Source: Branchiostoma floridae
Taxonomy: Eukaryota; Chordata; Leptocardii; Amphioxiformes; Branchiostomatidae
Direction: 5' to 3'
NCBI RefSeq assembly: GCF_000003815.2
Contig: NC_049997.1
Coordinates: 1,243,493-1,307,492 of the forward strand
DNA length: 64,000 bases
Shown one piece after another: positions 19,572-42,959 of the stretch. Numbering within the stretch: position 1 is the stretch's first letter; the number at the start of each line of letters is the position of its first letter. A program made the translations under genes and the position numbers. The notes below the pieces were generated by a model, which made no database searches, was not told the origin of the DNA, and was given only the letters and a program-made list of their open reading frames with translations.

Positions 19572-22500
19572 CTGCAGGGGGAACAAATGGTACAAATGTA
19601 TGCTCATTTGAGAAAATACATGCAAGTCCCTTAGCACCCCATAGATGTACTTACCTGGGGAAAGTGTCCTTTCCTCATCCAACAAATATATTAAGTATAG
19701 AATGTTGAATTTTAAATTTTGGGTCACTGAAAAGGTTTGGGCCAGTGGGAATGTCTAAATAGTGACACTGTACTAAATGCCTTATATGGCACCATGATTT
19801 CACAATCATATATTTTTTTATACTTTAATCAACAGAAAGCTACAATCCGATAGAAAAATGCAAGACAAGAAAAGATCATGTACCTAAGAATTGAGGGAAC
19901 GCAAACTGCATCCTCTCCATCCGCCTGATTGTTCCTGAGGAATAGACATTGCTAAATGATTAAGATCTGTTTAAGATTCTATCTATTGTATAATGTCATC
20001 ACTCATAACTTATAACTGTTACAGAAGCTAAACAATGTCTTTTTTGTTTAATATGTCTTCAATATCATATGACCGACACAACAACTACAAAATTATGCAT
20101 GTTAGTTCTTGATAAAACCTTCTTGGTCTTTAATAAATCACTTTGGAAACAATCTTCAAGAAAGAAAAGGAGTTGATAATCTACAGCTATATGCATGGGG
20201 CTTTCATCACCACACTGTTGGGAAATTGCATTGGCTTCAACAACACAGCAGTTAACAAGATATGAAAACTAGACAATGAACAAAAGAGCAGGTACCGATA
20301 CAGGATGCAAATAAGCACAAGCTAATGAAGTTAAGTACATGGAAATTAATATAAGCATACAAGCGCATATGCATGATGTACATTCACCTCAAATAGTAAC
20401 ACTGTTATACATTTGTACACGCCTATGGCTATACCCCACTGCATAGAAAATGAGTGGATTAGTAATCTTACAGACTCATATAAAGAATTTGACATACCCC
20501 TGTCCTCGACCAGCCCTAAACTCCAGTCTAAAATGTCACAGTCCTCCCCCATGGACTTGTACCTCTCTGCAAACTGAAACAGTGATGACATTGACACTGG
20601 AATCAAACTGATATTATATGACAATGCAATTCAATTCACACAGTGTGTCTGAGATGCAACACTTTTAAATGGAGGATGTCTGCATAATGATATCCATCTT
20701 AATGGGATATCAACTTGATTAAATTCTACTGTTTTCATTAAATTTCAACTAAATCTGCATACATTGTGTACTGTGTAACCTACATGTACACTGTAGAACA
20801 GGTATCCATGATAAGACTGTATTGTACTAAAGCTAGCTAAGTTAAAGTTGCCATGATAATACATCACATTGTGATGCGTCGGCCCGGCACTCATCTCCGT
20901 TTTATAGCCCTGGGGTCACACATACATTTCGTAGGTCACTACTCCAGGGGGCTTAGTCCACTGGCAGAGCTCAAAATACTGGGTGCATGTGCACCCAGGT
21001 GCACCCAAAATTGGAGCTGTGCACCCAATTATTTTCTGTGGGTGCATAGGGTGCACCCAAATATTTTCTTGCGTTTATATAAAAAGATTATGTAAAGATA
21101 TCAAAGTATACTAGTATACATCATATCATCATATTCTTGACATCTAAGTGTTAGAAAAGATAATAAAAATGTCTGTCATGGTACATGTTTAAGAATTTGA
21201 TAATTGTAACTAAGTTTTATTATTTGGATATTATTTGAATTTAAGTGGTGCATGCAAAAACTTTTTGGTGCACCCAATTTTTTGAGCTGGGTGCACCAGT
21301 GCACCTAATCCCAAAATTGAATTTCAAGCCCTGACTGGTAATTGAAGTGTGTTAAGCTTCCATACTCTTCCTCTTAGCAGAGAAAGAATATGTACCATTT
21401 TTGTAGTCTTTGGTATGACCTAGCCACAGCATCTGGTCTTCCTTGGTGGTCTCCCATCCAAGTAATGACCGGACTACACGTTGCTTAACTTTCGAGGTCA
21501 GAGGAATTGGGTGTATAATCAACGCGCCATGGCTGTAGCTCATGCTGTGTTGTACTAGGCATCATAAAATGAAGTTCTGACTGTGCCACTGTACATTTTG
21601 TATATCACTAAGGATAAAAAATGTACCAATATCTAAGTATGTTATTGTGTAACATTACAGGGTAGAGGTAACGTAATATATATTACCTTTGCAAATCCAC
21701 GAATCCTCGATTCGTTTCTTTTCCTGATCTCTGCAACACAATTACAAAAAAAAAGACTTAAATCATTCAAACAACCGGACAACACTGACAGCAACTGAAG
21801 ATTTTCATAATCTCCAAGCAGATCCTACAATGGCATAGGATAGTACCAAACTGGCCAAGGAGTGTAGTCAGCCAAGAGGTGTCCATTTGCCATGTAGAAG
21901 TAGCAAAACACACTCCTAAGCCGGCTTCACTCCTCTAGCAACTTTGGATACTATCTTATGCCCCCGTATGATTTGCTTGGAGATTAGATTTTCAAAACTT
22001 GCTGCCAGTTTAATCTGTGAATGGGTGTGTCTGATCATCTAATAAGGCATCCTACCAAAAATTCACTATACTTTTAATTATCTAATTATCAGATAGTAGA
22101 ACAGTCTCTTCCTGCCCAGAATAATTATTTCATTGCAGTTCCACACCCAAAGAATAATGAAATGTCCCAACTCTTAAACCTGCCATAATTCATGTATAAG
22201 TTTGTGCACAAGTGTTCAACACTATAATTCCAGAGCAGGTACATCTGAAAGATAACAAGATCTTAACAGGAAAAATTGATTCTAGACAGAAAATTGAAGT
22301 CTTACCCTCCTCCTCCTCCCTCATCCTTTGATAAGCTGTCAGTGTCTCCAGCTAGGAAAATAAAGTTACCAAAGAAGTTAATTTTGTAACCTATAGCTAT
22401 GTAATATCATCATGTTTTTATAGCTGAAAATACAGAGTGCCCGCTGCATCATAGCAAGGAAGTTGAACTGAAACTACCTTTAGTCATAGGGAAAATATAG

Positions 22501-25500
22501 GACTGCAATCTGATGTAGAGACTAGCATTTTGTCAAAAGATTGACGAAGAGAACGCGGAGCAAAATACTGTCCGTTTTCTTGAGCACCATCTCTCACATC
22601 TGCCTACTGTTGACACACAATATACTATAAATGCATTTAAGTTCACGGAGATTTAATTCCGCGGTAGCGGGAAAATGAACTTTTCGCGGTGGTTTTAATT
22701 TTGCAGTAGCACCATTCACTGTACGTTAAGTCTCTTACAGTAACTGTTATGGAAAAATATTCGCGGAGCAGCAGCCGCCGCGAACATTAATAAAACCACC
22801 GGGAAAGTTTCTGCATTTACAGTAGTATAAAATAACCTATGTATGTCCAGATATAACCTCCTTGACTGGATGTACTAAATTTCTGTACTCGGTTATAATT
22901 CTTGATTGTACAAACGAGGAGGTTAAAATTCCTATTTTCAACCTCATTGTTTGTACTGATCTTTAAGCTGTTGATAATCACAGCGGCATGTTTTACATCT
23001 TTCTGGGCAGGTATTATTTTATTGTGAAATATGGGTAATCATGACTCAAACATGACTCTGAAAGCATTTCTCCTCGCACAACTATAAGGCCAAACTTTGG
23101 GCCACTTGAAACATAACATTTCTGGCAAAAGTTATTACCATTATGATAATGACTTGTTGGCTTATAATGATACCATGTTTTGCAAATTCTAGCTTAAAAT
23201 TTATTGTCTATATTTTCCAAATCTTGGTTCTTTTTGAACTCTTGCATAAGATTTGGAGTCTTCTGTATCCTAAGTTATCACAGATGCTAATGAAGTCATG
23301 ATGTAATGTCTATGATATAACACTACATTACCTTTGCCCTTTTAGGAGGAGGGGGTGGATCTGGAATGGGCACTTTCCGCTTCCTAGTGTAGGCCGAGTC
23401 TGGTATGGAGGAACAACCCGGCTGACGCTCATCATAGGGGTGGGGACGGTTGGCAGTCTGTTCCACAGGGGTTGGGGTATGATTAACAGGGGGTAAGTTA
23501 TTCTGTCATATTCTATGTTAACATTGCCTATAATCTTAACTTGAAAGTTCATTTTGTATCATGCTAGGGAAGTTGAACTGTAATTTCCAACACAAACACT
23601 TAGTGGACTTACCCAAATTGTCGACTTATCAGCTCCAGTCCTTGTCAAGGAATAAACAATCCACTGCTTCTGTGATGTTACAGTATGCAGATGGCACACG
23701 TGATCTGGCGAGCAGTGGATTGTTAGTTGCAGGAAGTCTATAGCGCCCACTGCCTCTGTATAGGGATGGTTGTTAATCTCTGAGGTACATGTAGATGGCT
23801 TTTTTTATCTGTCTAGTAGCAGAAAAGTCTGGTACTCAGTCTAGGATTTTCACTTTGTCCAGTGTGACTCTACTGTGTTGAGAAACTTCTGAGGTTGTTG
23901 AAGTCAGGTGTTTGTGCTTATGAAACCTGGTTTTAAGTTATCTCTCAGTCTCCTTAATGTAGGTCTCTTTGCACAGGTCTATGATGCTGTTTTGACCTTG
24001 GCACTTTGTTTGATACACAACACTACACTTGTTTTCACTCGGGATTTTGTCTTTGGTGCTACCAGGATGTTGAGACTTCTGGACAGCCTGAAGCAGGTTT
24101 TAATCATGTGACCTGAAAATCCTTCAAAGCCCTACTGACACCCCTTTCATGTAAGGAAGCACAGACCTTTCACATAAGGATTTGCAAAACAATTTTTGAG
24201 CACAAACACTTGAATCAACCTCAGAAGTTTCTTAACACAGACATATAAAGAGTCAGTTGAACACTCGGTCACACTGTACAAAGTGAAAATCTTCAAGGAC
24301 ATAGAACCAGACTTTTTTGCTAGAGGGATCAAAGATTCCATCTACATCAGAGCTAAATTATATTAACCATTCCTAGAGATGGTGGGCCATAGACATCCTG
24401 CAACTTACATGTCACGATCCACTACTCACCGAGTCACATGTACTCTCTACATAACATGACATCCTGAAGCAGTGGATAGTTCATTGCTTGACAAAGACTA
24501 TTTTTTTCAGTAAACACAAAACACATCTAGACAGAACTCCCTTAAAGCAACATCAGACTGGTAGAAACCAACTGCAATGTCACAGGTATAGCAGGGCAGA
24601 TAATATACCCATGTCTGGAACATCTGTATCTATATCGCTGGTATAACCGCCGTTCGGCGTAACACACCAGTGCGGTACATCTCTGAGTACATTCTGGACA
24701 GGGGTATATTCTGGCCTGCTATACCTGTGCTGATGCTGAAAACACAACATGTACCATTTGCTCGGAAAGTGTACAATCCATAATAGGTATGTTGGTCACA
24801 GAGTGATTCCAGGGCTCGAAATACATTTCCTGCATACCTGCACTGGTGCAGGTAACATTGAAAATTACCTGCACCAGACAAATTTTACCTGCACCACTCT
24901 AAATTTAGAAAGTATGGATCATACTAAAATCATTGAGGAATAATTTTTATGTTTCTTTTATTCTTAATAGTTAGGTAACATTCAAAGCAGCTAATAACAA
25001 TCCACATACACCTACACCTTAGGACATTTATGTATAAACCCCAGTACATGGACCGGTGCAGGTTAGGTGCAGGTAGACACCAGAAATACCTGCACAGCTC
25101 CAGTTTTACCTGCACTAACCTGCATATGCAGGTGGTATTTCCAGCCCTGGACTCCCTATGTCAGTGAACCTTTAACGGTAGTTCACCTTTATCTGCAGAG
25201 TAACCTATATTTGTTGTGTTTACCCACATGGTATTTGGGGATATCAAGTCGATGGTTTCAACTTGTAATAATTGTTCAAACTATTGTAGTTTGAAACTAT
25301 CGTCCGTCGACTTCCTATCCCTAAATACCCATTTTTGAAAGCAACAGATATACGTTACCCTTTGGATAAAGGGGAAGTAGCGTTACATAGAAAGAGCTGT
25401 AAGACTTCTCGGGGACTGACCTCTTCTACACCTTCCTTCATTCCATCAGCCACTCCACCTGACAGTGAAACATGGATAATCAGTTTATAATAGACAACAT

Positions 25501-28500
25501 ATGACTTGCCGGCAACATGTATATTTAGTCTTTTATACATTAAGAAGACCTAAAATGACAGCTGAGGACTGTGGTGCGTACCGGTTCGCCGAACCGGACT
25601 TGGACTTGCTATAACTTTCGGTTCAAGTCCGGTTAAAACCGGAACGTAGAAAACCGTTTTTTTGGAAAACCGGAAATCTATTACTTGTTGTATATTAGTG
25701 TCATCTAAAAAACGCTAGATACCTATGTTACTTTATTAACTGCAGCCAACGGGCCCCAAAATAACTGTTTGCGAAAATAGATTGTCCTACCACCATGAGC
25801 GGGCCATTAGCACATGGTCGCGCCACCGTCCGCACAGAAACTTTCTTTCAAAATCCGGCAACGCGGTTTGTCGCTTGTCGGGCTACTTCACTAAAAGCAT
25901 GGGCTAGCAGTTTGTTAAAAAGAAACACAGACACCTTTATTTAAATAAATATTATGAAGTCTTAAACTTATTTTATATTTCTCTTCTTTAAATCTGTAAC
26001 GAATAAGCGTACAATTTATTTGTAAGGTTAAATGTAGAGAATAATGAAACCGCACGCATCGCTTCTACCCGCATTACAGTAGGCTATCCCAATGACCCGT
26101 ATTGACCTCAGTCGCAAACGCCATGCTGAAATTTCGGGCCGTCAAAACACAAGCCGAAAAGGCCATATTCTACCGTGATTTCCCGACAATTATCATTGAA
26201 AATCGATGTTGCTACACCTTTGAAAATGACACTGTCGTCTTCGGCAATATTTTTATCGCATGCGGCCCGATCGAGGGGTGGTCGCAGCCGCCGGATACGC
26301 TAGCTAGGGGACCTCGTATAGGGCAAGTCGCTTAATGCTTGTGTTGATGCAGAAAAATTTGGCGGCCGTCAAAAAACGGACTTATAAGTCCGGACCTGAA
26401 CCGGAATCTCTGGACTCGAGTCCGGACCTGAACCGGAATGTGAGCTCTGGTACGCACCACTAGCTGAGGATGTCTAAATATCCTTAATAATCAATCATAT
26501 ATATCTGCTTACTATTCAAAACCTTTGTTGCGTCGATGTAGGTTAGACATCCAGGTTATAAGATACACCCAAATGTAGTTACTCAAACAACTGGATATGG
26601 TTTTGGAAACGGTCAGACGTTTCGGATAGAATCCACTATCCTTCGTCAGTGACACTGATATCCCTAAATACCCATTTTTGAAAGCAACGGATATAGGTTA
26701 CCCCTCGGATAAAGGGGAAGTAGCGTTACTGACAAAGGATAGTGGGGAAGTAGTGTCACTGACGAAGGATAGTGGCCTCTGTGAAAATTCAAGCGTCTCA
26801 GACGGCGAAACGCCGTTTGCGACAACCGTCCAAGGCGTCTTAAATTGTTGGGACGCTTTGGACGGTTACGGCGGCGGACGGCATGGGACGGGCTTTTGAA
26901 CGCCCGACGAAACGTCCAAGACGGTCCGAACGGCATTACAAATGCTTGGACGCGTCTAGATTGGCACTTTAGACGCGTCCGGTCGGACGTTCGGGACGTC
27001 CGAGACGGCGTCTGAAAGCGGGCAGCCGGACGCTCCCGCGCTCCGTCGGGCGGGCCCCCCGCTGGGAACAGACGTCTCTGCGGACGGACCAGACGCCGAT
27101 TGCGACGGACGTAAATGACGTAATCCAGGCTGCTGGGACGGATCGGACGCCGATTGCGACGGGCATAAACGGCGTAATCAAGGCCGCTGGTACGGGCGGT
27201 AGCCTCCACCACGCCTTCCCACGGGGGGGTACAGATTGTAAAATTCGACAGAAAATGGAATGAAAGGCCAAGAGGCAGTCATCGCTATATTATTAAAGGT
27301 TAATATCTGGGCCAAACTCCTAGCAAAATATTTTTTCTTCAAGACACAGTTTTAGTTAGTCAGGCAGTACGGTAGAAACTCATAACGGGCCGGTGCATTT
27401 AATTTGGAACGTGCGTAGACGGCTGCCCGGACGCCGTTTCTGACGCCGTCCGGTCACGGCTATAATTTTATGGCCTGTTGGGACAAGCGTTGCCACATAC
27501 CAAACAAACAAATATTCAGCCTGAGGCAGTGGAAGACCACCCACGACCGGGCCGTCAGGTTTAGTTAAAATCAAACGCAACTTGAACAAATTTCTTCGTA
27601 AATTCAGACATACTTCGCGGCGTTTGATAAACTTTGCTACATGTATGAAATTCAATCCGACCTTCAATCGTGTCCGCGGCTCTTTGTGCCGCCGTGCCGC
27701 CCGCACTGTCACACGTCAGATAATGGACGAGCCCACATAACATCAAGGGTGAATACAGGACGTTTTATAATTCTCTATCGTACATTTTAATCGCAATAGT
27801 CTTAATTAAAGACTGGATACATTGTAAATGTGCAATACATTTTCTACAAAGCTCATATGTCATTTTTATTTCGCGGTAGCGAAACAAATTCGTCCGTTTC
27901 ATAAGTTCCCAACCCCTAGTAGTTGGGAGGGCCGATTTCATTGACGGCAAAATCGGTAGGTGCTATCTCATTATCTGTTGTCTAAATCATTATCATTATC
28001 ATTCTTAATCGAAACCACAGATATTTTTTACAAGTATTTTACATCGTGTTCATAAGTCTTTTTATGTTGTGGCATCAAAGTAAGATCCTAAATCTTATCA
28101 TTCCTTTGCGTATGTGGGGAGGGCACCGAAACTTTGCAACCGTCGTCGGCAAACTTTGCAACAACATGTTGTACAAAAATAAGAATAAAATGAGTATTCA
28201 CTTACCGGCGACAGCAAAGTATCGACAGTCAGCTAACGGAAGGACGCTGCTTCTTTTGACGGCATCTGTGATTTCTCCTGTCCGTTACGTTTCACAGTTG
28301 CTTCAGGTAAGTAGTATGATTTATCCCCCTTGTCGGCCTACGACAAATAATTTTTGAACATTCTTTTTTAGTATAAATAACGAATAAAGTCATCGCCGTA
28401 AACCCAACCTCAGCACAATGTCGTAGAAACATCAACTGCTACTTCTAGACGTGATGTCCTTGGTCTAAAAGTAAGCAAAATTTTAACAAACAGACATAAA

Positions 28501-31500: not shown

Positions 31501-34500
31501 GTGATTGGTGGGAAGTTGATTGGATTTATAGAATAATGACGCACGTCCTGTCGCAGGCGCTACTTCAAAAGGCTGCCGCCGAAGCTGCTACCATGGTAAC
31601 AACACGTCCAGCCACATTTTCCAACTCGCTGCTATTACAGCTTACATACATAATTTTCGGCTGCATTTAACGCTGTTTTCACGGGGAAATGTCGGGAATC
31701 GAACTTGTATACTTTTTTTGCCGACCGTCCACTAAAATCATACGGAAGTAGCCCGCCGAAAAATGTAAGTAGGAGACTATTTTTACAGTGAGCCCGCATG
31801 TTTTGACGGTTGACTGCCGACCCCATCACATGCCCCCGCATAGGTTGCCCCTTACGGAAAGTTTAGCCGTGAAAACATTTTTTGTTCTGCGTAGTTTGGG
31901 TTGAGTTTTGGAATTCGGATTGACATTTATTTTATATCAGAAAATAACTATCGGGAGACTGTTTTCTTATCGCAGTATTCTTACCCAGCGCTGTGAACAT
32001 GACCGCTGTTGGCAATTTTTCTCCGATCTTTTGCAAATCTGTACCCTTTGGACGGTACTGGACGATGAGCAGAAAGGTGTCAACTTTATCGAGAAATGTT
32101 CATTTCTTGGTGGTTAAAGAAACAGCAACACGACACCAGCAAAATGAAGAGTTATTAAGCAAAATATGGTGTAGAATTTTAATTAAGAATTAGAATTAAG
32201 AAAGTTAATTGATCATGAGCAACCAGTACCAGACAAAATAGGTGATGTAAACTTCCTTTTGATACGATCTTACGAGCTGAAATGCGTCAATGTCCCTCGG
32301 CCAATAATGCCAACACCCGCGGCGTTATCCAGTCCCCGAACTATCCACACATTATCAACAAATACGTGAAAATGACGACGTACAAGTATCATGGTAAATT
32401 TCAGAGTGTAAACGTTACACTGCTTAACGGACAAAATATTTCGTCAGTTAAATGCCCGACCAAGGGGCGGGCAGTCGGAACAAAGCCTTTTGTTTCGAGA
32501 TCGTGGGGTGTCGGTAGTCCTACTTTGCGGAATGAAATTTTGCCTCTGAAAATACGTGAAATAGCGTCTTAGAGGGTTTGAATTTTAAAATTTTCCCGGG
32601 GGAGCATGCCCCCGGACCCCCCTAGTTTGGCGAGCGCCTGCGGCGCTCGCGTCGGGCCTTCGGCCCTCCCCCACCCCACCCCCCCCCACAAAATTTGGGA
32701 CGGAAATAAATTTCAAGCTGGAGACAGCACTGATTGGTACCCACCACTACTCCTAACGGTCTTACCTGCTTCCCTGTCCTGCTCCTGTTCCCCTGGGTGA
32801 CTGAGTGCCGGCCTGCATGCCTGTGGTGTCCACCTCAGTATGCATGGTCTGGTCCACCTCACCAGACAGAACAAACAGTTTCAAATTATGTTTCACTGCA
32901 TTTTCAGAATGCGTTTGATTGTCTACTACTGATTATACAACATGTTGAAGCCTGAAGCACATCCAGTTATAACTGTTAAATGCACATACCTACGAAAATG
33001 ATCTTAACAGTACTTAAAAGTACAGTCCAAAAAGTACTATCCTTATCCTTGCTCAAAGGCCTTGTTGAAACTCACTTTGGCTATCATTTTACCAGTGCCC
33101 AATGATGAAAACTGATAAAGTATGTTTTGAAGGATCTTATCTGGTTGTCAGGGGAAAAATACTTGGGCAGAGTCTGGCAGATGATCTACTTGTCATATAT
33201 TACCACAACTCTCCTGATTCACTGAATCTTTCAGCATAATGTACAAATGGCCCTTAAAGAACCTTTTACATTAAAGACATCTTAAGGTCTAAACTAACCT
33301 GTGTGGCGCAGTCCAGGTGGATGCCCGTGTTGCCGAGGTCGATGTTAGCGGAGGGTTTAAAGCCGCCCTCAGACTGAGGGGTGGACAGGGAGCTGGCGGA
33401 TCCAGCATCTTCCATGAAGTCATACTGACCAAGAATGGTGCACCCTCTAAACTCATCTTCACCTTCATTATCTGATGTTACCATGCTGTCACTGGGGGAA
33501 GAAGGATGAAATCAGTACACATTAACACATGTTCCATGTAGTCATACTGACCAGGCATGGTGTGCCCCTCCCCTCCACCTTCATTATCTGATGTTACCAT
33601 GCTGTCACTGGGGGAAGAAGGATGAAATCAGTACACATTAACACATGTTCCATGTAGTCATACTGACCAGGCATGGTGTGCCCCTCCCCTCCACCTTCAT
33701 TATCTGATGTTACCATGCTGTCACTGGGGGAAGAAGGATGAAATCAGTACACATTAACACATGTTCCATGTAGTCATACTGACCAGGCATGGTGTGCCCC
33801 TCCCCTCCACCTTCATTATCTGATGTTACCATGCTGTCACTGGGGGGGGGGGGGGGGAAGGATTAATAAAATCAGTATAAACAATACAATCAACACTCTG
33901 TCTCCAGTCACTGAGGGGAGAATAGCAATATCAGCATACTTAAACTCTCAGAGAATGTTCAGTTAAGCGTTGACACAAGCACATTTAGATGCTTTGCTGT
34001 TGTAATGCTTACAAGTGCATATATTTACTACTAACATTAAGTTAAGACAGCTTAAATCCACAGGTGACTCCGATAAAATGTTTTGAGTCACCAAAAGAGA
34101 AGATTATATGTCTTTGAGCACCTTACAAAGAACAAGACCTAAATCTTTCAGCCACAGGAGACAATGAATGTTAAATGTTGGACCCTGACACTTACTGGAT
34201 GACCCTTCTAATTAAAATGTACACAAATTTTGATCCATTTGTTTGCTGATTCATAATGAAAAACCAAAGAAAAAGATGTTTTGATTAAAAAGATGATACA
34301 GATGAGTCAACAGAGCCAGTAGAATTAGTGGAATTCAATCAAGCTTTCACACCTGACACTACACAAACACAAAAGGGAAAGCTAGAATACCTGGGTGTCT
34401 GTTGGGAGTTTCCCCTCAGGTTGACAGGCATGCTGATGGTGGGTCTGTGCTCCATGACGCTGTCTTCTGTTGGGCACCTGTTGGGTGTCTGTTGGGAGTT

Positions 34501-37500
34501 TCCCCTCGGGTTGACAGGCATGCTGATGGTGGGTCTGTGCTCCATGACGCTGTCTTCTGTTGGGCACCTGTTGGGTGTCTGTTGGGAGTTTCCCCTCAGG
34601 TTGACAGGCATGCTGATGGTGGGTCTGTGCTCCATGACGCTGTCTTCTGTTGGGCACCTGTTGGGTGTCTGTTGGGAGTTTCCCCTCCGGTTGACAGGCA
34701 TGCTGATGGTGGGTCTGTGCTCCATGACGCTGTCTTCTGTTGGGCACCTGTTGGGTGTCTGTTGGGAGTTTCCCCTCCGGTTGACAGGCATGCTGATGGT
34801 GGGTCTGTGCTCCATGACGCTGTCTTCTGTTGGGCACCTGTTGGGTGTCTGTTGGGAGTTTCCCCTCCGGTTGACAGGCATGCTGATGGTGGGTCTGTGC
34901 TCCATGACGCTGTCTTCTGTTGGGCACCTGTTGGGTGTCTGTTGGGAGTTTCCCCTCAGGTTGACAGGCATGCTGATGGTGGGTCTGTGCTCCATGACGC
35001 TGTCTTCTGTTGGGCACCTGTTGGGTGTCTGTTGGGAGTTTCCTTTCCCCTCGGGTTGACAGGCATGCTGATGGTGGGTCTGTGCTCCATGACGCTGTCT
35101 TCTGTTGGGCACCTAGTTGCCAAGTCCTGCAGGAAACACACACAAACACATCTTCATTAGTCAGCAAAAATCCTGGACAAGTTTTCCAGACTAGACAACT
35201 GGGAAAGAGTCACATCATGCTTTCAAAGGGGGGAGTAATAATTAAGAGTACAGCCTTGTACGAGGGAGCTTTAGACATTAGCCTCAAGCATAACAAGAAA
35301 GCTTCTGAAAAAAGCTGGCCGGTGCGTATTTTGGAAAAAGTCTGGATGTTAAACAAAATCACACGAAAAAAGAGTTTTTAAACATCGAATTACTGAATTG
35401 GTTTTTCTTCTATTAAAAAAACACTACATGAGATTTGTCTAACAAAGAAAAAAAAAATTAGCAAGTGGGGTTCGAACCTACGACCTACGGAAGATAGGTA
35501 CCGTGCTGTACACCGCTCGGCCATGCTGGCTCGATTATGCAATAGCACGTATAGAAGGGCTATTTGGTTAAAGTGACCGATCCATGCATCCATGCATGCA
35601 TCCATGCAACCGCTTCTCCCGTCTCATAGCCGGTGCACCGGCAAAAAATCTAAGAATCCAAAAGACGAGTATGGGTGACCCAGTGTGATTCAGGCCAAAA
35701 ATGCAAGCCGTAGTAGGCTGCATTGCTTCACCTCAACTAAGGATGACTGCTTTACCTTACCATATGGCCTCTGTATTTAAAAGACTGATTGAAGTCCCAG
35801 CAGCAGTATAATCTAACCATGGATAGTGAGTGAGTGAGTGAGTGAGTGAGTGAGTGAGTGAGTGAGTGAGTGAGTGAGTGAGTGAGTGAGTGAGTGAGTG
35901 AGTGAGGAGTGAGGCACAATATCATGATGGTACTTACATTTCCAACTGATATTAAAGAGACATCATTAAACAAGAAGGCATTAGAGTTATCTAGCTTGAG
36001 CAAACATTCCAAAACCAGCCATCCATGGCTCACCTCTGAATCATAATGTCCACATCAAGAAAATTCAAGTACTAAAATTAAAACCCAACTTCCACGACGC
36101 CATACCTTCACCAAATGATTCTACCCTTTACCACTGCTGTATTAATTCTGTTTGCCATACATACATACATACATCAATTATGCAAAAAAGGTCCTCATTT
36201 GCATAAATTATATCAATTGATGAGTGAGTGAGTGAGTGAGTGAGTGAGTGAGTGAGTGAGTGAGGCCTAGGAGTGAGGCACAATATCATGATGGTACCTA
36301 TTTGCATAATTTATGCAAATGATGACCTCATTTCTGACACTGAACCTGCCCTGCAGTTCCAAAAAAGCCACTAGGGGGTCGAAACCTATACCTCCTTAGC
36401 TCACGGCCTCTAGGGCGCTTGCATGATGGATCAGGATCTGATGTCAATTTGATCACCTCTTGCAATTCCTACGTAAAATCTTCCATCTGAAATAAAAATC
36501 CAGTTGAAATAAAATAAAGGGAAGGGATACAAATACAGCCTAATATTACATGTATGTAATACCTGAGATACAGTGGTACTGTTGGTGGTGTTGGCCTGGC
36601 CGGGCTCCGCACCGTGCGGGGAAGCATCGTTTCGCATCTGCAGACTCAACATCTGGTTACTCAGCTGGAGAAAAGAAACAAGTTTATGTAACAAGAGTTT
36701 TAAGATCTCACACCTCGTGGGTTTTTTTGTATGTTTTGTAGTTCATGAATTATGCAAGTGAGGTTTTGATTAAAATCATATTGTGGTCAATGAAAATTTC
36801 ATGTCACTCCATTGTGTACATGTTACATGACTAGCAATTATACATAATATTTTACATACAGGGGTACAAATAGAACTGTTAAAAACACAGTCATTCAAGC
36901 AGATCTTCCTTTGGCCCAATGACCTGAAATGTCTGTCAGCTGTCAGAGAAAGATTAGAAATGACTTATTCTAGCTACTCTGAACTCTACACTTTCTGTCA
37001 CACTGACTCCTGCATCTGACCTTCACTTCCTGCCACATGTGGTGAAACATGCCCTAGAATTATTCAAACTTTAGAATCTTCAAACTTTTTCCTGTGAAAG
37101 GTCTAATTTCTCTTCATGCTATTATGCAGAAAGTGGGAGAAATTCATTAACCACTGCCTTCAAAGAAGAAGTCAAACCCTACAATTATAGTAAACTTAAC
37201 ACCTTATGGTAGATTAGAAACCAATATTATGTACTGAATGACTACTCTTATATACTTTGAGACTCATCAACATTGGTCATTGTGCAGCTGCTAATTATGA
37301 ACTTTGTGGGATAAGAAGTAACAAAGATGTAGATGAAGATGATTGATATCATTAAACACACATGCAGTTTCACAGGCTTTTACACCATGAAAGCAGTACC
37401 TTTACCTTCTCTAACTGTTCATGCAGCAGGTTGTTCTGCTTCTCCAGCTCCTCACAGCGGGTCTGAATGGACAGGATGGCCGCGTCCTGGCGTGTTTTCT

Positions 37501-40500
37501 GAGGATAAAAGTGTGTGACGTTGTCACAGTGAAAACGGTGGGTGCCATACACATATGACCTGTTCTGACCAATCCTCTCATTAATTGTGTCATGTGATAA
37601 CTGACCATTTTTACTCTTGACTTATAATTCCCAAAAGGAATATGACCAGACTTTTGGTCTGCCCGGGCTGTCATCTTGGGAATGCTGGCTTTTGATTGGG
37701 TAAGCCACACCATCGCTGTAAGTCCTGATTGATCGAGATGGGTCTTTCTTACGGGGAGACGCCAAGTCGTCCGTTATCAAGGATCCCTGTCCGACAGTGC
37801 CACCAAAACGTGCAGCCTTCCACAAGGAACTCTTCTTGGGCCCCTGACGTTTGTGGCCAACATTAACTGTGCAGATCTTAGCAAAAACATTAAGGTGGAA
37901 TTTGTGGATGATCTAAACTGGAGTCTAGAAATGCCTCTTCAACACCTTCTTCCCTGCAAAAGAACCTGAGTGACCTGGAAAAATGGTCCTGTGAGAACAG
38001 TATGATTCTACATCCTGGAATTATTTTCTACTTGTCAAGTTCATGTCATGTCATGTCCTACATGTCATGTTTTCCTGCAATCTAACCTGAAATGGAATAC
38101 CTGTGGGCTACATCTGTGCCAAATCTACCCAGCGCCTGTTCCTTCTGAGAAAATTTACAGAGTCCTCCCTAAAGGATGGAATAAGGGACTGGCCCTCCAC
38201 TATACTCCTAGCCAGCTCCACTATACTACTTCTGAAATTTAGTGTGTTTCTTCCCAATTTTCTTGGTTAGTTTTGCAAAAGTAATGAAAAATCACAGATT
38301 TTTGTGCCAAGTGGCATCACTTTTCTAGTCGGCATTGTCTGCAAAAACAGACAGTATAGTACTGTACAGACTATATAAGTTTGCTACAAAGTTGTATCTA
38401 AGTTTCAATTGTAAACTAAAGTTACCATCCTTGCTACTTGTTTGATAAACCTTTTACCGTCACTACCTGCTTAGCAATACTAAGAAATAATTAAGATACA
38501 ACTGTACCTGAGGATAATGTAAATAATGTCTGCATGTAAATATCTAATATTACAATGTATAACTGTTACATTATATGCTACAACTATATTTCAACTGTTA
38601 AATTATACGACTCTAAAGCATTGTAATGTCCTAGCAACAATTCAGCAACTTGGCTGCCTGGCAGTGGGGCACTTTTTATCTATGTTTTGTTCAAATAAAC
38701 CTGGCAAGTTGAATGATTCATATTGACAAGATGTGTTGTGTTGTTGCTTCCTGACAGTCTGTCCTTCACAGCATGTCAAGCAATAAGAAAGATTGTGGAA
38801 AAACTAAACTTTACTCAACCAACACCAAGTTTATTTGGGACTTACCCCAAAGAAGCTGACGGAGTCGGCTGAAAATTTGGGGTAAGTCCCAATTAAACTT
38901 GGTGCTGGTTAAGTAAAGTTTAGTTTTTCCACAATGTCATTTACCAAGTTGAACACAGTTGAACTTTCATGCTAAAAAAGATTGTGGACTTTCAGGACAA
39001 AATAACATTTTGGGCTTGGCCTCATTTTCTGTGTATAGCACCAGACCCACCAGCTCGGGGATTTCCGTCTCCCCTGGGTGGGGCAGCCTGGTGCTACATG
39101 TAACACATGAAACTCGGCCACTCCCATCAGTTAACTTATCAGGGCTCGAAATACTTTTTTCTGCATACGTGGACTGGTCCAGGTAACCTAGAAAATTACC
39201 TGCACCAGACAAATTTTACCTGCACCACTATGGATTTATTAGGAAGTATGGATCGTACTAAAATTGTTCAGGAACCATTGCTATTTTTTTTCTTTTATAC
39301 TTTATTGGTGGTAGCAGCCAATGCAGCTAAGAACATTATCCACATACACATATATTACATCATTTATGTATAAAACCCAGTACATGGACCAGTGCAGGTT
39401 AGGTGCAGGTAGACACCAGAAATACCTGCAAAGCTCCAATTTTACTTGCACTAACCTCCATATCCAAATGCAGGTGGTCTTTACATACTGTATCATTACA
39501 CATAGAAACACACAATATATATAAGAGTGAATTCTGGTAATACAATGTGAATCTTATATAAGGTTACATGTATATTTCAAGATACGTTACCTGATAAGCT
39601 TGCGCTATGTTGTCGCATGTCAGCTAAAAAATATGAGAGAAAAATATTAAAGAATTTAATATCAAAGCTTGTGAAAACAATAATGTTTCTGGCATTTTTT
39701 AGTTTCACCTACACAACAAGGTATCTAGATTTTGAGCATCATTCTCTGTTGACGACGGGTGTTGACTTCCTCACACTTTTTACCAATATACATGTATGAG
39801 GTCAGGTGCGACATGCAAGTGATTCATTTGAACCTGAAGAAAGCTGCAATTGGTGAGTTTTGACAAATTATCGTGTTGGGCCATGTTGAAGTACTTATAA
39901 GTCACTTATCATTATCAAAATACAAGTTACTCTAAATACACTACAGTTTCCGATTCCAAGTTGCACATTTGACTGGACTTATTGAACACCAAATCTTACA
40001 AATTAAACACCCAGTTCCCCTGAGGTAATCAAATTAACTACAAAATACAATCAGGAAATGTTGACTTCTAGTATAAGGCCAGAATATACCCATGTGTAGC
40101 ACACCAGAATGTTACCCTAGAAACCGAATATGTAACAAACCAGAATGTACCCCTGACCAAGACATTAAGTTCAATGTAGCCCACATTCTTGCCTGGGATA
40201 ATTGCATGGCCTGTTGCATAATGCCCATATGTTGGGTTTCTGGAAAAAAACTGTCCAATCCGGACAGCAGAAAAACTTGAATGTCCAGTCTGAAAACTAA
40301 CGCAGTTCAGCAGGGTCTACAACATTTAACTGTAAATTCAGGAGGTTCAACAACGCTATATTGACCCCCCTTATATTACTCCTTCATGATGTACCTGCTT
40401 GATCTTCTCCTCCAGCACAGAAATTGACTGTTCCTGGATTCTCTTCTGTTCCTCCCATGATATCTGCAGACACAAAGTTTGATGGTTAAAACCAGGGATA

Positions 40501-42959
40501 CATTGTATTGAATATGTGACTTACTAATTTTTGCGGGGATACAATTTTGTGGTAGGACTAGGTAGCAAGTTTTAGGTGTAGCTGTGTTCTACATTCAAAT
40601 GCTGAAGTATGAAATAGAGTCAAGCAAATAATTTCTTTACACAGAGAACTTCTAGCTAACCACAGTGAAGTAGGACTAGGTAGCAAGTTTTACGTGTAGC
40701 TGTGTTTTACACGTTGAAACAGTCCTACAGCACAAAAAGATACATAATTATTTTGTGGGGGCTTTGTGGTGGAGAGAAACTGTGACAACTGTGAACATAA
40801 ATCTACAGCAAATAACAAGACAAATAATTTTACATACACTGACTCCAAAAACAAAACTAATGTCTTTAATTACCTTGTTCTTTGTTTGGAAGCAATACAG
40901 TCAAACCTGTATTAGCGGCCACCTTTGCATAGCAGCCACCTGGCCATAGTGGCCACTTTTTGTCGGTCCCTTGGATTCGTAATGATTAAGACATAGGCTT
41001 AGCGGCCACCTGTCCAACGCAGCCACCGCCACACGATTTCCAGTCCCGTTGATACAGAAACACTTCCTACTGCAACCATACTGCAGCCTTATGTCACCCT
41101 GCACCGACTTTGAAATTGTAGTTTGCGAGGATTTGAAGTTAAATAAAGGTTGAAAAAAAAAAAAAAAGTTCCTGACAGGGTCATTTTGGCGGTATAGCAG
41201 AAAGTATGCGTGCCTTGAGCATTGAAGTGCAAGTCTTTGTCGGCAAATTTACCGATCGAGACAATGTTACTTGGTGAGAAAGATTAGTGGGAACTGAAAT
41301 CATGTGTAGCTTGCTCATGTCAATTGATCAACATTTTCTCTATAGTGGCCATATTTCTCCAGTCCCTTGAGTGGCCGCTATAGACACTGGTTTGACTGTA
41401 TTTCAACAGAAGATAAGGAGATGGACTAACCTTTGCCAGGCGCAGTTCTTCTTTAATGGCCTCTTCTTGAGCTGCCGACAGTTTGTTGTCAAACCTGTCC
41501 TCTAACTGTTCCTTGACAGTGGTGAGTTCTGAGACTCGTGCATCAGCAGCATGGAGGATCACTTCTCGCTCAAGTATGTCCTGTGGCTGTTAACACCACA
41601 GTGTCAATATGACTAGAACAATTGCTACTAATTACACTTGCCATGACATTGTCACTCATCATTTCTTGTCACTCATATTTTTGTCATTCATCTTGTTGTT
41701 TACCTACAGTAATACAATGTACCTGTCCCCAAAGCAGATGTCAGATAGAAATTGTACAATAGTCTGTGAGGAGTACCGTCAGAAAAAAACGCAGATCAGA
41801 AAAAGCTACATTTTGTACCCTACATCTGCTTAGATTAGAGACTATCATCAAAAAACGGATTAGAAAGTTACATTTTTCAACCCCAAATTTAGAGAGAGAG
41901 AGAAATGATTTATTGCCATTGACATTAAAAACTCAGCACATTTAAGAAATGCTGAATAGAGCACTGTCAGAGAACAGACTATAACTTTATGATCTTCAAT
42001 CCACATCTGCTTAAAGCACAAGACTGTTAGAAAAAATGAATAAGAAAGTTACGATATCATTATTAACTTGTGGTAGAGCATTTTCAGAAAAACGTAATCT
42101 TCAAGCAGATGTTGGGTTGAAAATTGTAAATTCCTGATAGTACCATCTTATACCCAACATCTGCTTGAAGATTACGACTACTGAGTGTCAGTTATGTTAC
42201 CTCAGAAGCTTGATGGACCTGCTGTTCCAGGTTCTTGCGTGTCTCCTGCTGCTTCTTGTTGGTATCCTCTGACACCTCTGTCTCCAGGGTGGAGATGCGC
42301 CTACCCTGGGTGTCCTGGGGAAGAGGAAGCCATTTTGATTTTAGGAAAACATCTCAACACATTTGGAAACTGTTTAGGCCAACCAGGGATACATTGTATC
42401 GAATATGTGATTTACTAATTTTTGCGGCGATACAATTTTGTGGTAGGACTAGGTAGCAAGTTTTACGTGTAGTTGTGTTTTACATTTGCAGTTGAAACAG
42501 TCCTGCAGCACAAGAAGTGAGTGTTACCACTACTAAGTGTCAGTTATGTTACCTCAGAAGCTTGATGGACCTGCTGTTTCAGGTTCTTGTGTGCCTCCTG
42601 CTCCTTTCTGTAGGCATCATCTGCCTTCTGTAGGGTCAAACTAACTTCCGAGTTGGAAGTCTGCAACAATAAAAAGAGATTTTCACTGACTTTTGAATGG
42701 TGAGTGACAAGTTGAACTATCGTAGAACTATCAGAGAGTGGAATTGAAAGATCACAGCGCTGGGTTATCCTAAGAGAGAAACACCAACAAAATGCTGGTT
42801 GAAAGAAAGCATCTATAGGGGTCTAAATCACAGCATAGGGGGTCCAAACCACAGCATAAAGGGTACTATGCTCTGACTATGCTGACAAGAACACTTGCAA
42901 TTGCCACCCTGAACACAAAAGGAGACTTACGCGTCGTGAAGATTGTCTCAGCCTGGCAT
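19309..42959 (-). CDS. Gene A: TPR-like coiled-coil protein with acidic tail, 19 firm exons (join of the listed exons)
   Basis: Nineteen exons from 42959 down to 19309 have canonical GT/AG borders and agree in splice phase at every junction, except for one 5-base disturbance inside the repeat exon. Exons 41431-36664 carry LEREVILHAAD, ISWEEQKRIQEQ and RCEELEKQNNLLHEQLEK followed by LSNQM. As I recall human nucleoprotein TPR, this matches in the same order its YERELMLHAAD, SWEERERM and RCEDLEKQNRLLHDQIEK/LSDKV stretch. TPR forms the coiled-coil filaments of the nuclear pore basket and has an acidic unstructured C terminus. Here the part after the coil holds a 30-residue repeat array, an acidic Ser/Thr-rich region, a basic patch RKRKVPIPDPPPPPKRAK (possible nuclear localisation signal), a segment I do not recognise, and a Glu/Asp tail starting VVSVLSDDD (resembles a SUMO-interacting motif). 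Roughly the first 1000 and a further 400 or more TPR residues are missing. It may be a truncated paralogue, a chimera or a misassembly. Confidence 0.8.
19884..19934 (-). CDS. Gene A exon (GTIRRMERMQFAFPQFL)
   Basis: A 51-bp exon, acceptor CCTCAG, donor CTTAG then GTACAT, phase 1 in and 1 out. It reads TIRRMERMQFAFPQFL. Function unknown; the composition looks like a folded or conserved segment rather than low complexity. Confidence 0.85.
   Translation of the reverse strand, partial: EQSGGWRGCSLRSLNS
20498..20573 (-). CDS. Gene A exon (FAERYKSMGEDCDILDW)
   Basis: A 76-bp exon, acceptor GTTTCAG, donor GGG then GTATGT, phase 0 in and 1 out. It reads FAERYKSMGEDCDILDW, then SLGLVEDR. Not recognised, but clearly protein-like. 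Confidence 0.88.
20965..21333. mobile_element. Non-autonomous DNA transposon, GGGTGCACC family, copy 2
   Basis: Inverted ends CAGAGCTCAAAATAC and ATTTCAAGCCCTG, with the same GGGTGCACC-rich sub-terminal DNA as 18958 but inverted. ACTGG flanks both sides (20960-20964 and 21334-21338). It sits in an intron of gene A. Confidence 0.82.
21357..21540 (-). repeat. 5S rRNA-derived SINE (or 5S pseudogene with tail)
   Basis: On the minus strand, bases 21540 to about 21421 align over the full 120-base length of 5S rRNA. AGCTACAGCCATG matches the 5' end, AAGTTAAGCA the A-box, ACTTGGATGGGAGACC the C-box (21448-21463), and GATGCTGTGGC the 3' end. It continues into a tail (CATACCAAAGACTACAAAAA and on) that is not 5S. 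Intact internal promoter boxes plus an unrelated tail are the structure of 5S-headed SINEs (SINE3/Deu-type), which are known in chordates. Several 5S stem positions are changed, so a functional 5S gene is unlikely. Confidence 0.85.
21687..21730 (-). CDS. Gene A exon (EIRKRNESRIRGFAK)
   Basis: A 44-bp exon, acceptor GTTGCAG, donor AAAG then GTAATA, phase 1 in and 0 out. With the preceding base it reads EIRKRNESRIRGFAK, a basic helix-like segment. Confidence 0.85.
22306..22351 (-). CDS. Gene A exon (LETLTAYQRMREEEE)
   Basis: A 46-bp exon, acceptor TTTTCCTAG, donor GAGG then GTAAGA, phase 0 in and 1 out. It reads LETLTAYQRMREEEE and continues a charged helical stretch into the next exon. Confidence 0.86.
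22622..22828. mobile_element. About 205-bp TA-type MITE
   Basis: Left end TACTATAAATGCATTT, right end TGCATTTACAGTAGTA, with TA at both flanks. The inside carries GCGGTAGCG/CGCGGTGG motifs. A related, more diverged copy with TGCGGTGGTTTTATGTTTGC lies near 17900-18075. Confidence 0.65.
23332..23457 (-). CDS. Gene A exon with basic patch (possible NLS)
   Basis: A 126-bp exon of 42 codons in phase 0, acceptor CCTGTGGAACAG, donor GCAAAG then GTAATG. It starts TANRPHPYDERQPGCSS and ends RKRKVPIPDPPPPPKRAK. The two basic clusters 12 residues apart, around a Pro run, resemble a bipartite nuclear localisation signal, which would suit a nuclear basket protein. A different frame across this region is a shadow. 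Confidence 0.88.
24810..25149. mobile_element. CAGGGCTCGAAAT-family copy 2 (full length)
   Basis: 340 bp between CAGGGCTCGAAATAC and TATTTCCAGCCCTG, with TGCAGGTAA-rich ends. Flanks GATTC (left) and GACTC (right) may be a 5-bp target duplication with one change. It lies in an intron of gene A. Confidence 0.82.
25421..25458 (-). CDS. Gene A exon (GVADGMKEGVEE)
   Basis: A 38-bp exon, acceptor CACTGTCAG, donor GAAGAG then GTCAGT, phase 1 in and 0 out. It reads GGVADGMKEGVEE with the preceding base. Short, but phase-consistent on both sides. Confidence 0.72.
25569..26462. mobile_element. 894-bp hAT-like non-autonomous element with perfect 8-bp target duplication
   Basis: Ends CTGTGGTGCGTACCGG and GGTACGCACCACTA (both near CAGTGGTGCGTACC), flanked by GCTGAGGA on both sides (25561-25568 and 26463-26470). 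An 8-bp duplication and a CAG-like end are hAT hallmarks. Sub-terminal DNA is rich in TCCGGACCTGAACCGGA. No transposase motif. Relatives are the outer element at 30275 and a half copy near 63530. Confidence 0.88.
26581..28960. repeat. Inverted-repeat host sequence interrupted by an inserted element
   Basis: The segment 26581-26650 is repeated inverted at 26740-26775 plus 28901-28955. The arms share ACTCAAACAACTGGATATGG, CGGTCAGACGTTTCGGATAG and AATCCACTATCCTTCGTCAG. The right arm is cut by the element 26776-28900. Confidence 0.85.
26776..28900. mobile_element. 2125-bp GC-rich element with CCTCTGTGAAAAT ends and GG duplication
   Basis: The inverted ends CCTCTGTGAAAAT/ATTTTCACAGAGG are followed inside by GACG/CGTC-rich DNA (26800-27240 and 28620-28880) around a normal-composition middle. 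Flanking GG on both sides is a 2-bp duplication: the uninterrupted inverted copy at 26581-26650 shows the empty site GATAGTGGATTCTATCC. Open stretches inside are by-products of GC richness; no transposase is recognised. The 13-bp end is shared, with one change, by 43175 and 50731. Confidence 0.8.
29023..29234 (-). CDS. Gene A exon: acidic Ser/Ala/Glu-rich region
   Basis: A 212-bp exon, acceptor TTTTCCCAG, donor GAGCAAG then GTTTAT, phase 2 in and 1 out. It begins SYGSGEEDEEQETEQSK and ends GQNGEVAVPEQ. Low-complexity acidic composition as in the C-terminal region of TPR proteins. Confidence 0.88.
29485..29518. repeat. 34-bp near-perfect palindrome
   Basis: Arms AATATCACAAGATCTT and its exact complement around two A bases. 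It lies upstream of exon 29023-29234 in gene A. Confidence 0.95.
30275..32749. mobile_element. Outer hAT-like element, interrupted by another
   Basis: Left end CAGTTGGGTACCAGGTACCG, right end TTGGTACCCACCACTA. Once the inner insertion (30696-32732) is removed, its ends and the GGACCTGAACCGGACCTGG stretch match the family at 25569. The flanks show no clean target duplication, so it is the older of the two. Confidence 0.75.
30696..32732. mobile_element. Inner hAT-like element, 2037 bp, perfect 8-bp target duplication
   Basis: Ends CAGGGCTGTCTCCAG and CTGGAGACAGCACTG, flanked by ATTGGTAC on both sides (30688-30695 and 32733-32740). GGGACGGAAAT-type sub-terminal repeats lie at both ends, and a GC-rich block GGAGCATGCCCCCGGACC lies near 32602. 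Several open stretches of under 100 codons lack transposase motifs. Non-autonomous. Confidence 0.9.
32766..32857 (-). CDS. Gene A exon (VDQTMHTEVDTTGMQAG)
   Basis: A 92-bp exon, acceptor CTGTCTGGTGAG, donor GCAG then GTAAGA, phase 0 in and 2 out. It reads VDQTMHTEVDTTGMQAG then a Gly/Ser/Gln-rich stretch. Its left border lies 17 bp from the nested transposons. Confidence 0.82.
33299..33491 (-). CDS. Gene A exon: acidic/Ser-rich region
   Basis: A 193-bp exon, acceptor TTCTTCCCCCAG, donor CACACAG then GTTAGT, phase 2 in and 0 out. It reads SDSMVTSDNEGEDEFRG, then GQYDFMEDAGSASSLSTP, and ends GIHLDCATQ. Its first part and acceptor are repeated three more times to the right (33534-33855). Confidence 0.9.
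33534..33855. repeat. 116-bp tandem duplication of the 5' part of a gene A exon
   Basis: Period 116 bp (GTTCCATGTAGTCATACTGA at 33531, 33647 and 33763). Each copy carries the acceptor CCCCCAG and a diverged beginning of exon 33299-33491 (TSDNEGGGEGHTMPGQYDYM), but no clear donor. The last copy ends in a run of 16 G. Confidence 0.93.
34391..35126 (-). CDS. Gene A exon: eight 30-residue repeats, with a 5-base frame disturbance
   Basis: A 736-bp exon, acceptor TTTCCTGCAG, donor CACCCAG then GTATTC. It consists of eight copies of a 90-bp unit encoding EDSVMEHRPTISMPVN followed by RGNSQQTPNRCPT. It enters in phase 0 and must leave in phase 2. The actual length fits only after removing a 5-base TTTCC duplication near 35044-35048 in the first unit, so the sequence as given is frameshifted. 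The recurring PTISMP/QQTP motifs are proline- and threonine-rich, as in disordered regions. The other open frames across the array are shadows. Confidence 0.85.
35459..35533 (-). repeat. tRNA-like sequence with pol III boxes (tRNA-derived SINE head)
   Basis: The minus strand contains an A-box TGGCCGAGCGG, a B-box GGTTCGAACCC 37 bases later, and then a run of nine T, a pol III terminator. The TTCGAAC loop and stem are good, but the acceptor and anticodon stems do not pair, so it is not a working tRNA. Confidence 0.65.
35825..35905. repeat. (GAGT)n microsatellite, about 20 copies
   Basis: Perfect TGAG repeats followed by GAGTGAGGCACAATATCATG. The same repeat plus the same flank recurs at 36221. 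Confidence 0.97.
36221..36295. repeat. (GAGT)n microsatellite, 11 copies, with duplicated flank
   Basis: TGAG repeats followed by GCCTAG and the same GAGTGAGGCACAATATCATG flank as 35825-35940. The surrounding CATTTGCATAAATTAT and ATAATTTATGCAAATG are inverted copies. Confidence 0.95.
36563..36664 (-). CDS. TPR: Gene A exon: end of the TPR-like coil (LSNQMLSLQMRND)
   Basis: A 102-bp exon of 34 codons in phase 0, acceptor CTCCAG, donor CTCAG then GTATTA. It begins LSNQMLSLQMRNDASPHG. It follows the HEQLEK end of the preceding exon exactly where human TPR, as recalled, continues LSDKVVASVKEG. The next TPR segment (expected to resemble LRFIRREKEIAE) does not follow. Confidence 0.88.
37406..37498 (-). 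CDS. TPR: Gene A exon: strongest TPR match (RCEELEKQNNLLHEQLEK)
   Basis: A 93-bp exon of 31 codons in phase 0, acceptor TTATCCTCAG, donor GAGAAG then GTAAAG. It ends RCEELEKQNNLLHEQLEK. Compared with the recalled human TPR RCEDLEKQNRLLHDQIEK this is 14 of 18 identical with conservative changes. A coiled-coil heptad pattern is evident. Confidence 0.92.
37660..38030 (+). pseudogene. Degenerate non-LTR reverse transcriptase fragment (CR1/L2-like)
   Basis: The plus strand reads WVFLTGRRQVVRYQGSLSDS, then SLPQGTLLGPLTFV and KVEFVDDLNWSLEMP. These are the thumb-side motifs of a CR1/L2-group reverse transcriptase, with the catalytic YADD changed to FVDD. Stops and a frame change follow. An old LINE remnant in a gene A intron. 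Confidence 0.8.
38792..38935. repeat. Long foldback sequence (144 bp)
   Basis: The arms start ATTGTGGAAAAACTAAACTT and close with its complement. Inside, TTTGGGACTTACCCCAAA faces TTTGGGGTAAGTCCCAA around a 20-25 base loop. The arms differ only by small changes, so it could fold into a strong hairpin. Probably a foldback MITE. Confidence 0.85.
39140..39480. mobile_element. CAGGGCTCGAAAT-family copy 3, right end lost
   Basis: Begins CAGGGCTCGAAATAC and follows copy 24810 closely, including GTGCAGGTTAGGTGCAGG, but ends in unrelated DNA after TGCAGGTGGT. Confidence 0.8.
39591..39623 (-). CDS. TPR: Gene A microexon (LTCDNIAQAYQ)
   Basis: A 33-bp exon of 11 codons in phase 0, acceptor TATTTTTTAG, donor TATCAG then GTAACG. 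Short, but both splice sites are good and phase is kept on both sides. Confidence 0.72.
40395..40463 (-). CDS. TPR: Gene A exon: coiled coil (ISWEEQKRIQEQ)
   Basis: A 69-bp exon of 23 codons in phase 0, acceptor TATCTGCAG reading as ...CTGCAG, donor AAGCAG then GTACAT. It reads ISWEEQKRIQEQSISVL and EEKIKQ, corresponding in order to the SWEERERM segment of TPR. Confidence 0.88.
40898..41398. mobile_element. 501-bp Tc1/mariner-type MITE
   Basis: Ends CAGTCAAACCTGT and ACACTGGTTTGACTG, with TA on both sides (40896-40897 and 41399-41400). Interior AGCGGCCACCT repeats. Inserted in the intron just left of gene A exon 41431-41580. A left-end relative lies at 51964. Confidence 0.9.
41431..41580 (-). 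CDS. TPR: Gene A exon: coiled coil (LEREVILHAAD)
   Basis: A 150-bp exon of 50 codons in phase 0, acceptor GTTAACAGCCACAG, donor GCAAAG then GTTAGT. It starts DILEREVILHAADARVSEL and ends KEELRLAK. The LHAAD motif and its surroundings match TPR at the expected place before the SWEE exon. Confidence 0.92.
42090..42176. repeat. Small foldback repeat
   Basis: GTAATCTTCAAGCAGATGTT at the left faces AACATCTGCTTGAAGATTAC at the right around about 40 bases. The word CATCTGCTTA also recurs at 41820 and 42003. Confidence 0.85.
42201..42314 (-). CDS. TPR: Gene A exon: coiled coil, duplicate of the next exon
   Basis: A 114-bp exon of 38 codons in phase 0, acceptor TTCCCCAG, donor TCTGAG then GTAACA. 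It reads DTQGRRISTLETEVSED, ending NLEQQVHQASE. Its 3' half and the following intron bases (GTAACATAACTGACACT) are nearly identical to exon 42553-42660. Confidence 0.9.
42553..42660 (-). CDS. TPR: Gene A exon: coiled coil (TSNSEVSLTLQKADDA)
   Basis: A 108-bp exon of 36 codons in phase 0, acceptor TTGCAG, donor TCTGAG then GTAACA. It reads TSNSEVSLTLQKADDAYR and ends NLKQQVHQASE. It resembles the NEV..ALQ.A..EQ.A stretch of TPR just before LHAAD. Confidence 0.88.
42931..42959 (-). CDS. Gene A short exon (DARLRQSSRR)
   Basis: A 29-bp exon, acceptor CTATGTTTCAG, donor CGACGC then GTAAGT, phase 1 in and 0 out. It reads DARLRQSSRR with the preceding base. The first firm exon seen; no TPR N-terminal exons lie to its right. 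Confidence 0.7.

Follow-up and report, generated by a model that had tools for sequence, protein, structure and literature searches.

The DNA analysed here (the window) is a stretch of 64,000 nucleotides from Branchiostoma floridae. Its minus strand carries copies of parts of two genes: TPR, whose near-complete parent gene lies on contig C2, and PCM1, which lies on contig C7. The copied segments and the features between them are, in minus-strand order:

E2, 42553..42660, minus strand: 5'-truncated copy of TPR exon X23 (C2:11769281-11769129), assigned by tblastn/blastn to C2
E3, 42201..42314, minus strand: second, tandem copy of TPR exon X23, 39 nt shorter than the parent
E4, 41431..41583, minus strand: copy of TPR exon X4 (LHAAD stretch); the flanking introns align too
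E5, 40395..40463, minus strand: left part of TPR exon X57 (SWEEQKRIQEQS) with a new 3' end and donor
Doubtful 11-residue exon, 39591..39623, minus strand: no TPR or PCM1 homology, splice-like ends alone
Interspersed repeat of ~340 bp, 39137..39482, no strand assigned: lies in an intron and accounts for 43 of the 46 whole-block DNA matches listed
E7, 37406..37498, minus strand: right part of TPR exon X57 (RCEELEKQNNLLHEQLEK) with the foreign 5' end KTRQDAAILSI
E8 left part, 36632..36664, minus strand: TPR (LSNQMLSLQMR)
E8 right part, 36563..36631, minus strand: 3' part of PCM1 exon P2 (NDASPHGAEPGQANTTNST...)
PCM1 non-exonic sequence, 36463..36546, minus strand: C7:8170920-8171001, 83% over 84 columns, out of order relative to the main PCM1 block
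P1, 34391..35126, minus strand: PCM1 exon DLVTRYLTED..., amplified to 8.0 tandem units of 90 bp; an insertion of 5 nt in the first unit shifts the frame, which ends in a stop at 34958
116-bp tandem copies, 33460..33846, minus strand: 3.3 copies with 100% matches, carrying the acceptor and the start of PCM1 exon P2
P2, 33299..33491, minus strand: 5' part of PCM1 exon P2, open, with a new donor; dN/dS 0.50
P6, 32766..32866, minus strand: PCM1 exon piece; acceptor CTG versus CAG on C7
P7, 29023..29234, minus strand: PCM1 exon SYGSGEEDEEQ... with deletions, open; dN/dS 0.14
Further PCM1 3' pieces, 24504..25550, minus strand: collinear
TPR C-terminal exon copy, 23332..23499, minus strand: parent C2:11757818-11757576; basic clusters RKRK and KRAK; the adjoining intron aligns

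The TPR-related exons E2, E3, E4 (with a few leading bases), E5, E7 and E8 (36664-36563) were all found to be open, in phase 0 and bounded by AG and GT. The initial annotation had assigned seven exons between 42959 and 36563 to TPR. These six were upheld as relatives of TPR, while the exon at 39623-39591 and a 29-base exon at 42959, the latter likewise with splice-like ends alone, matched neither TPR nor PCM1. The joined exon peptide, which also contained residues of these two doubtful small exons, matched the Pfam TPR coil family TPR_MLP1_2 (PF07926) with an E value of 3.4e-12 and 47 bits (cut-off 36). The DNA, with its introns, likewise matches the TPR gene on C2. On C19, the contig of the window, the region at 13.42 Mb matches the same family at 34.3 bits, below the cut-off.

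The region from 42.67 to 36.63 kb is a DNA-level partial copy, with introns, of the C2 TPR exons that correspond to human residues ~1027-1170. In a block of 579 columns that spans E4 and both its flanks, identity to the C2 gene is 72% with gaps counted; the blocks around E3 and ahead of E8 align at 69% and 68%, respectively. As introns are aligned along with exons, the TPR copy is a DNA duplication rather than a retrocopy. E2 and E3 go back to the same parental exon, copied in tandem (regions 89% alike over 100 columns), and the acceptor of E2 sits at a CAG located within the exon of the C2 parent. The intron pieces 42486-42381 and 40595-40490 resemble each other at 94%. The parental exon VSWEE...QIEK is single on C2; in the window it is interrupted by ~2.96 kb replacing ~ten bases.

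The whole-block DNA search was dominated by the repeat at 39137-39482, and the C2 TPR locus was not among the matches listed. Among the 43 listed matches to this repeat, 40 are 85-91% alike and lie on many contigs, which is a lower bound, 40 of 7061 candidates having been scored. An imperfect palindrome at 38792-38935 of the window aligns with its own reverse complement at 86% across 147 columns and is MITE-like by look alone. Tandemly repeated ORFs on the minus strand at 9498-10122 (LYRVAVFLTSAAYGQQVCLG), open in two frames, have the look of a minisatellite.

With human TPR as query, matches were obtained on the minus strand of C2 from ~11.784 to 11.748 Mb, covering residues 177 to 2221; the strong matches were collinear. 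Residues 1-176 gave no match at E <=1 in the 80 kb of C2 examined. All ten genome matches of a query made of C2 pieces for human residues ~177-765 were on C2. For residues ~1185-1608, the coil expected after the break, six of the seven matches were on C2 and the seventh, weak at 31%, was on C5. It follows from these queries that one near-complete TPR gene was found, on C2, and that what lies in the window is a fragment. The idea of a second full TPR gene was rejected, as the ~177-765 and ~1185-1608 queries matched strongly on C2 alone.

Upstream of the copied exons, from 42.7 kb to 20 kb beyond the window, 26 pieces of C2 TPR, which omit human residues ~1-176 and ~873-1026, gave no E value below 0.016 among the 30 best TPR matches, and a comparison of all C2 minus-strand ORFs of at least 20 amino acids with the window did not reveal a TPR exon upstream of E2 among its best 60 matches. 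The N-terminal coil of TPR with its NPC anchoring region was found neither in the window nor in the adjoining 20 kb. The claim that the preceding ~1000 TPR residues are absent to the right was thus confirmed to 20 kb past the window. The following coil (LRFIRREKEIAE-type), also said to be missing, was indeed not seen in the window and was located on C2. The C-terminal region of TPR is represented by one exon, at 23.4 kb. An acidic ORF on the minus strand at 19378-19590 (EENVVSVLSDDDNGEEADEDEEEE...) resembles the acidic TPR tail; this likeness is unproven because the ORF (at 19.4-19.6 kb) is of low complexity.

A separate gene-like cluster of long ORFs lies on the minus strand at 59290-62160; it has a repeated motif (REKSSRIASSTPTAPHVPAVLPGKEKRRLS) and would encode a basic Ser-rich protein. 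Three pieces of the cluster, when compared with Pfam, gave no E value below 0.07. As a source of the N terminus the ORFs at 59-62 kb were ruled out: the last long one stops at ~59.29 kb, and they showed no TPR or PCM1 match.

The gene on C7 was identified as PCM1 by its match to PCM1_C (PF15717; E 5.4e-99), and all five matches of a genome search with this profile were on C7. Thirteen blocks of the window, from 36009 to 24504, are collinear with C7:8,166,697-8,172,870 (matches above 55 bits). Two PCM1 pieces, 36630-36584 and 36546-36463, precede this main block and are out of its order. A few other C7 matches above 55 bits break the order or lie on the opposite strand (near 30.7, 28.9 and 26.6 kb; 22.6-22.8 kb) and look like dispersed repeats. 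The C-terminal exons P1, P2, P6 and P7 are present in order, the 3' part of P2 being set apart within E8. The core exons P3-P5 were found neither among the window matches above 55 bits, nor among the first 60 minus-strand PCM1 matches (to 29.7 kb), nor in the genome search with PCM1_C, a profile that the window P7 ORF by itself matched no better than at E 0.086. When P2 and P7 were used as query, all five genome matches were on C19 and C7. The next phase-compatible exon had initially been taken to be an array of 30-residue repeats. The phase-0 fit from E8 to P1 was borne out, and the array itself, whose origin had gone unnoticed, is the amplified PCM1 exon DLVTRYLTED... (P1).

TPR and PCM1 meet within E8. 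Of the 59 bases over 36690-36632, 51 agree with TPR and 13 with PCM1, whereas of the 57 bases over 36631-36575, 45 agree with PCM1 and 16 with TPR. The reading frame continues across this seam inside exon 36664-36563, and the two parents are joined there at the DNA level. Since the TPR exon at 23499-23332 lies beyond the PCM1 block, one strand carries in succession the middle of TPR, the C-terminal part of PCM1 and a C-terminal exon of TPR. The sole N run of the window is 2001-2100, with none between 2101 and 64000, which rules out that the gene order was lost to assembly gaps. Three options had been offered by the initial annotation: a shortened TPR paralogue with a new N terminus, a chimera, or an assembly that lost sequence on both sides. 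The second was correct, with PCM1 as the partner that had gone unrecognised and the seam within E8. The first holds in part, in that the window has a partial paralogue which arose as a genomic duplicate, the near-complete TPR gene being elsewhere (C2); this partial copy is fused to PCM1. The third is disfavoured by the sole N run, by the near-complete TPR gene elsewhere and by the coincidence of the break in E8 with homology to a second gene.

When the copies were compared with their parents, pooled dN/dS was 0.363 for the TPR exons (bootstrap 0.233-0.549) and 0.385 for the PCM1 exons (bootstrap 0.252-0.574). The TPR pool included the C-terminal exon and only the homologous parts of E5 (15 codons), E7 (19) and E8 (11); E3 was omitted because it is a tandem copy, and the PCM1 pool excluded the last array unit. 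Single TPR exons gave values between 0.16 (E5) and 0.92 (E3), with 0.70 for E7; among the PCM1 exons P7 was lowest (0.14) and the E8 right part highest (0.59). For an unconstrained copy beside a constrained parent, a dN/dS near 0.5-0.6 would be expected, which is at the edge of both bootstrap ranges. The compared TPR and PCM1 segments are all open in the parental frame. In neutral simulations, 230 TPR codons at d 0.28 acquired a mean of 5.5 stops, with a probability of no stop of 0.003 (0.0885 at d 0.1), and 281 PCM1 codons at d 0.2 a mean of 4.2 stops, with a probability of no stop of 0.009 (0.096 at d 0.1); these figures are somewhat too strong because openness of the frame had guided the choice of segments and some of the simulated codons are deleted in the copy.

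Identity to the parental DNA was 405/469 bases in exons and 926/1095 in alignable introns; exons are hardly more alike than introns, which weakens the case for long constraint. Gaps in multiples of three made up two of nine in the exon alignments and 11 of 76 in the intron alignments. With the human TPR sequence as outgroup and inserted residues dropped by hand, 12 amino-acid changes were placed on the window branch versus one on the C2 branch (19 unpolarised; E3 excluded). For E3 alone the numbers were nine versus one, with six unpolarised. In the TPR middle block, inherited splice sites are retained at the E3 acceptor, the E2 and E3 donors, both ends of E4, the E5 acceptor, the E7 donor and the E8 acceptor. 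E8 and P1 are compatible in phase, but the five bases inserted in the first array unit bring a stop at 34958, and the splice acceptor of P6 is lost (CTG in the window, CAG on C7). A search for TPR and PCM1 matches (the latter to ORFs of C7:8143001-8203000), taken upstream to 20 kb beyond the window, yielded no first exon. Our reading is that coding constraint probably acted in the past and has since been relaxed, with partial breakage.

We consider it probable (about 0.66) that the locus is a chimeric partial duplicate which was under coding constraint for part of its life and is now decaying or diverging fast. TPR (C2) segments with introns and PCM1 C-terminal (C7) segments are interleaved on one C19 strand, with later local tandem copies. 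The segments would have been copied as DNA rather than mRNA, may have been joined via breakage and repair within the repeat-rich region, and may once have formed a transcribed coding unit. The putative product would comprise a short coil and a PCM1-type acidic, low-complexity tail, perhaps with a TPR-type basic exon. As it would be devoid of the Nup153-binding region of TPR and of the PCM1 core, it could be at most a small coil partner, replacing neither parent. Constraint would later have weakened, and the half derived from PCM1 would be broken, at any rate in the simple splice form.

The similar identity of exons and introns and the PCM1 copy without core exons are also what would be seen if two separate dead gene fragments lay side by side and had never been part of one transcript. 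Given the TPR-PCM1-TPR order, the in-frame seam within an exon and the open parental frames in both parts, such an origin is possible but rather unlikely. It is unlikely, too, that we are dealing with a live young fusion gene, in which the TPR coil exons would be spliced via the chimeric exon into PCM1-derived exons to give a short new putative protein, whose role may be to titrate or bridge partners of TPR or PCM1. The open frames, the splice sites kept in the TPR middle block, the phase-0 fit of E8 to P1 and the low dN/dS of P7 (0.14) are consistent with such a gene, but the P1 frame stops at 34958, the P6 acceptor is lost, no first exon was seen among the upstream TPR/PCM1 matches, and amino-acid changes accumulate on the copy. 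We regard as distinctly unlikely a lineage-specific expressed TPR-PCM1 fusion that would combine a nuclear-basket coil with a centriolar-satellite tail and be kept by selection in a lancelet.

TPR-like pieces of exon E7 occur at C165:213219-213332 and 479584-479700. They lie within a repeated unit of 3.2 kb, part of which resembles DDE_3, and it is possible that a transposon captured a TPR exon fragment in this unit. The new left end of E7 (KTRQDAAILS and ~40 preceding bases) is common to these two copies, the 3.2-kb unit is repeated at 94.6%, and a stretch of it matches DDE_3 below the Pfam cut-off (E 6.2e-5). That a DNA transposon carried the TPR exon pieces of the window is nevertheless very doubtful: only a 114-bp block is shared with the C165 copies, the TPR-block matches other than the E7 piece are on C19 and C2 only, apart from one C7 match (its PCM1 end), and P2 and P7 matched C19 and C7 only. 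An assembly artefact joining unlinked haplotypes or contigs, an idea raised in the initial annotation and in keeping with a repeat-rich assembly of 431 contigs (513 Mb), is extremely improbable, as the seam is inside an exon within the N-free interval 2101-64000 and the copies differ from their parents by a pooled dS of 0.40-0.56, i.e. they are not misplaced alleles.

The locus resembles nucleoprotein TPR in the exon sequence of the middle coil, in introns and splice sites and in one C-terminal exon, but it differs in that the N-terminal ~1000 residues and most of the rest of TPR went unmatched. According to PMC3258255, human Tpr binds Nup153 via L458/M489, which anchors Tpr at the pore; this Nup153-binding part, which belongs to the unmatched N-terminal residues, is absent from the window copy. 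Metazoans are described in the same article as having a single Tpr, and one near-complete TPR gene was found in the genome searches here. To the PCM1 C terminus the locus is alike, and mostly collinear, in P1, P2, P6, P7 and non-exonic sequence; it differs in that P3-P5 were not found, P1 is expanded to an array and the frame is broken in unit 1.

Huang et al. (2014; PMC4284660) describe lancelets as having the fastest exon shuffling among metazoans. The locus agrees with that picture in its sub-genic duplication and in the joining of exons of unrelated genes. However, those authors stress 1-1 phase exons, whereas here the seam lies within an exon and phase-0 exons are joined. By Banyai and Patthy (2016; PMC4967905), many such lancelet cases are ascribed to gene-prediction errors; an error of this kind cannot account for chimerism in the DNA itself. 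Among the titles listed on amphioxus chimeric genes or exon shuffling, on PCM1 with TPR, fusions or paralogues, on PCM1 in amphioxus and on TPR in lancelets, none concerned this locus, in a coverage outside which most subscription journals lie.

Automatic annotation could report a 'TPR/PCM1 protein' at this locus, where the chimera is real in the DNA and the protein is putative. The locus provides a concrete case, at the DNA level, in which parts of two unrelated genes have been shuffled together; both genes encode scaffolds, TPR for the nuclear pore and PCM1 for the region of the centrosome. Both parents are in the same assembly, and the seam is readable within a few bases. The locus thereby bears on the dispute whether the many odd domain combinations in lancelets represent real shuffling (PMC4284660) or annotation error (PMC4967905).
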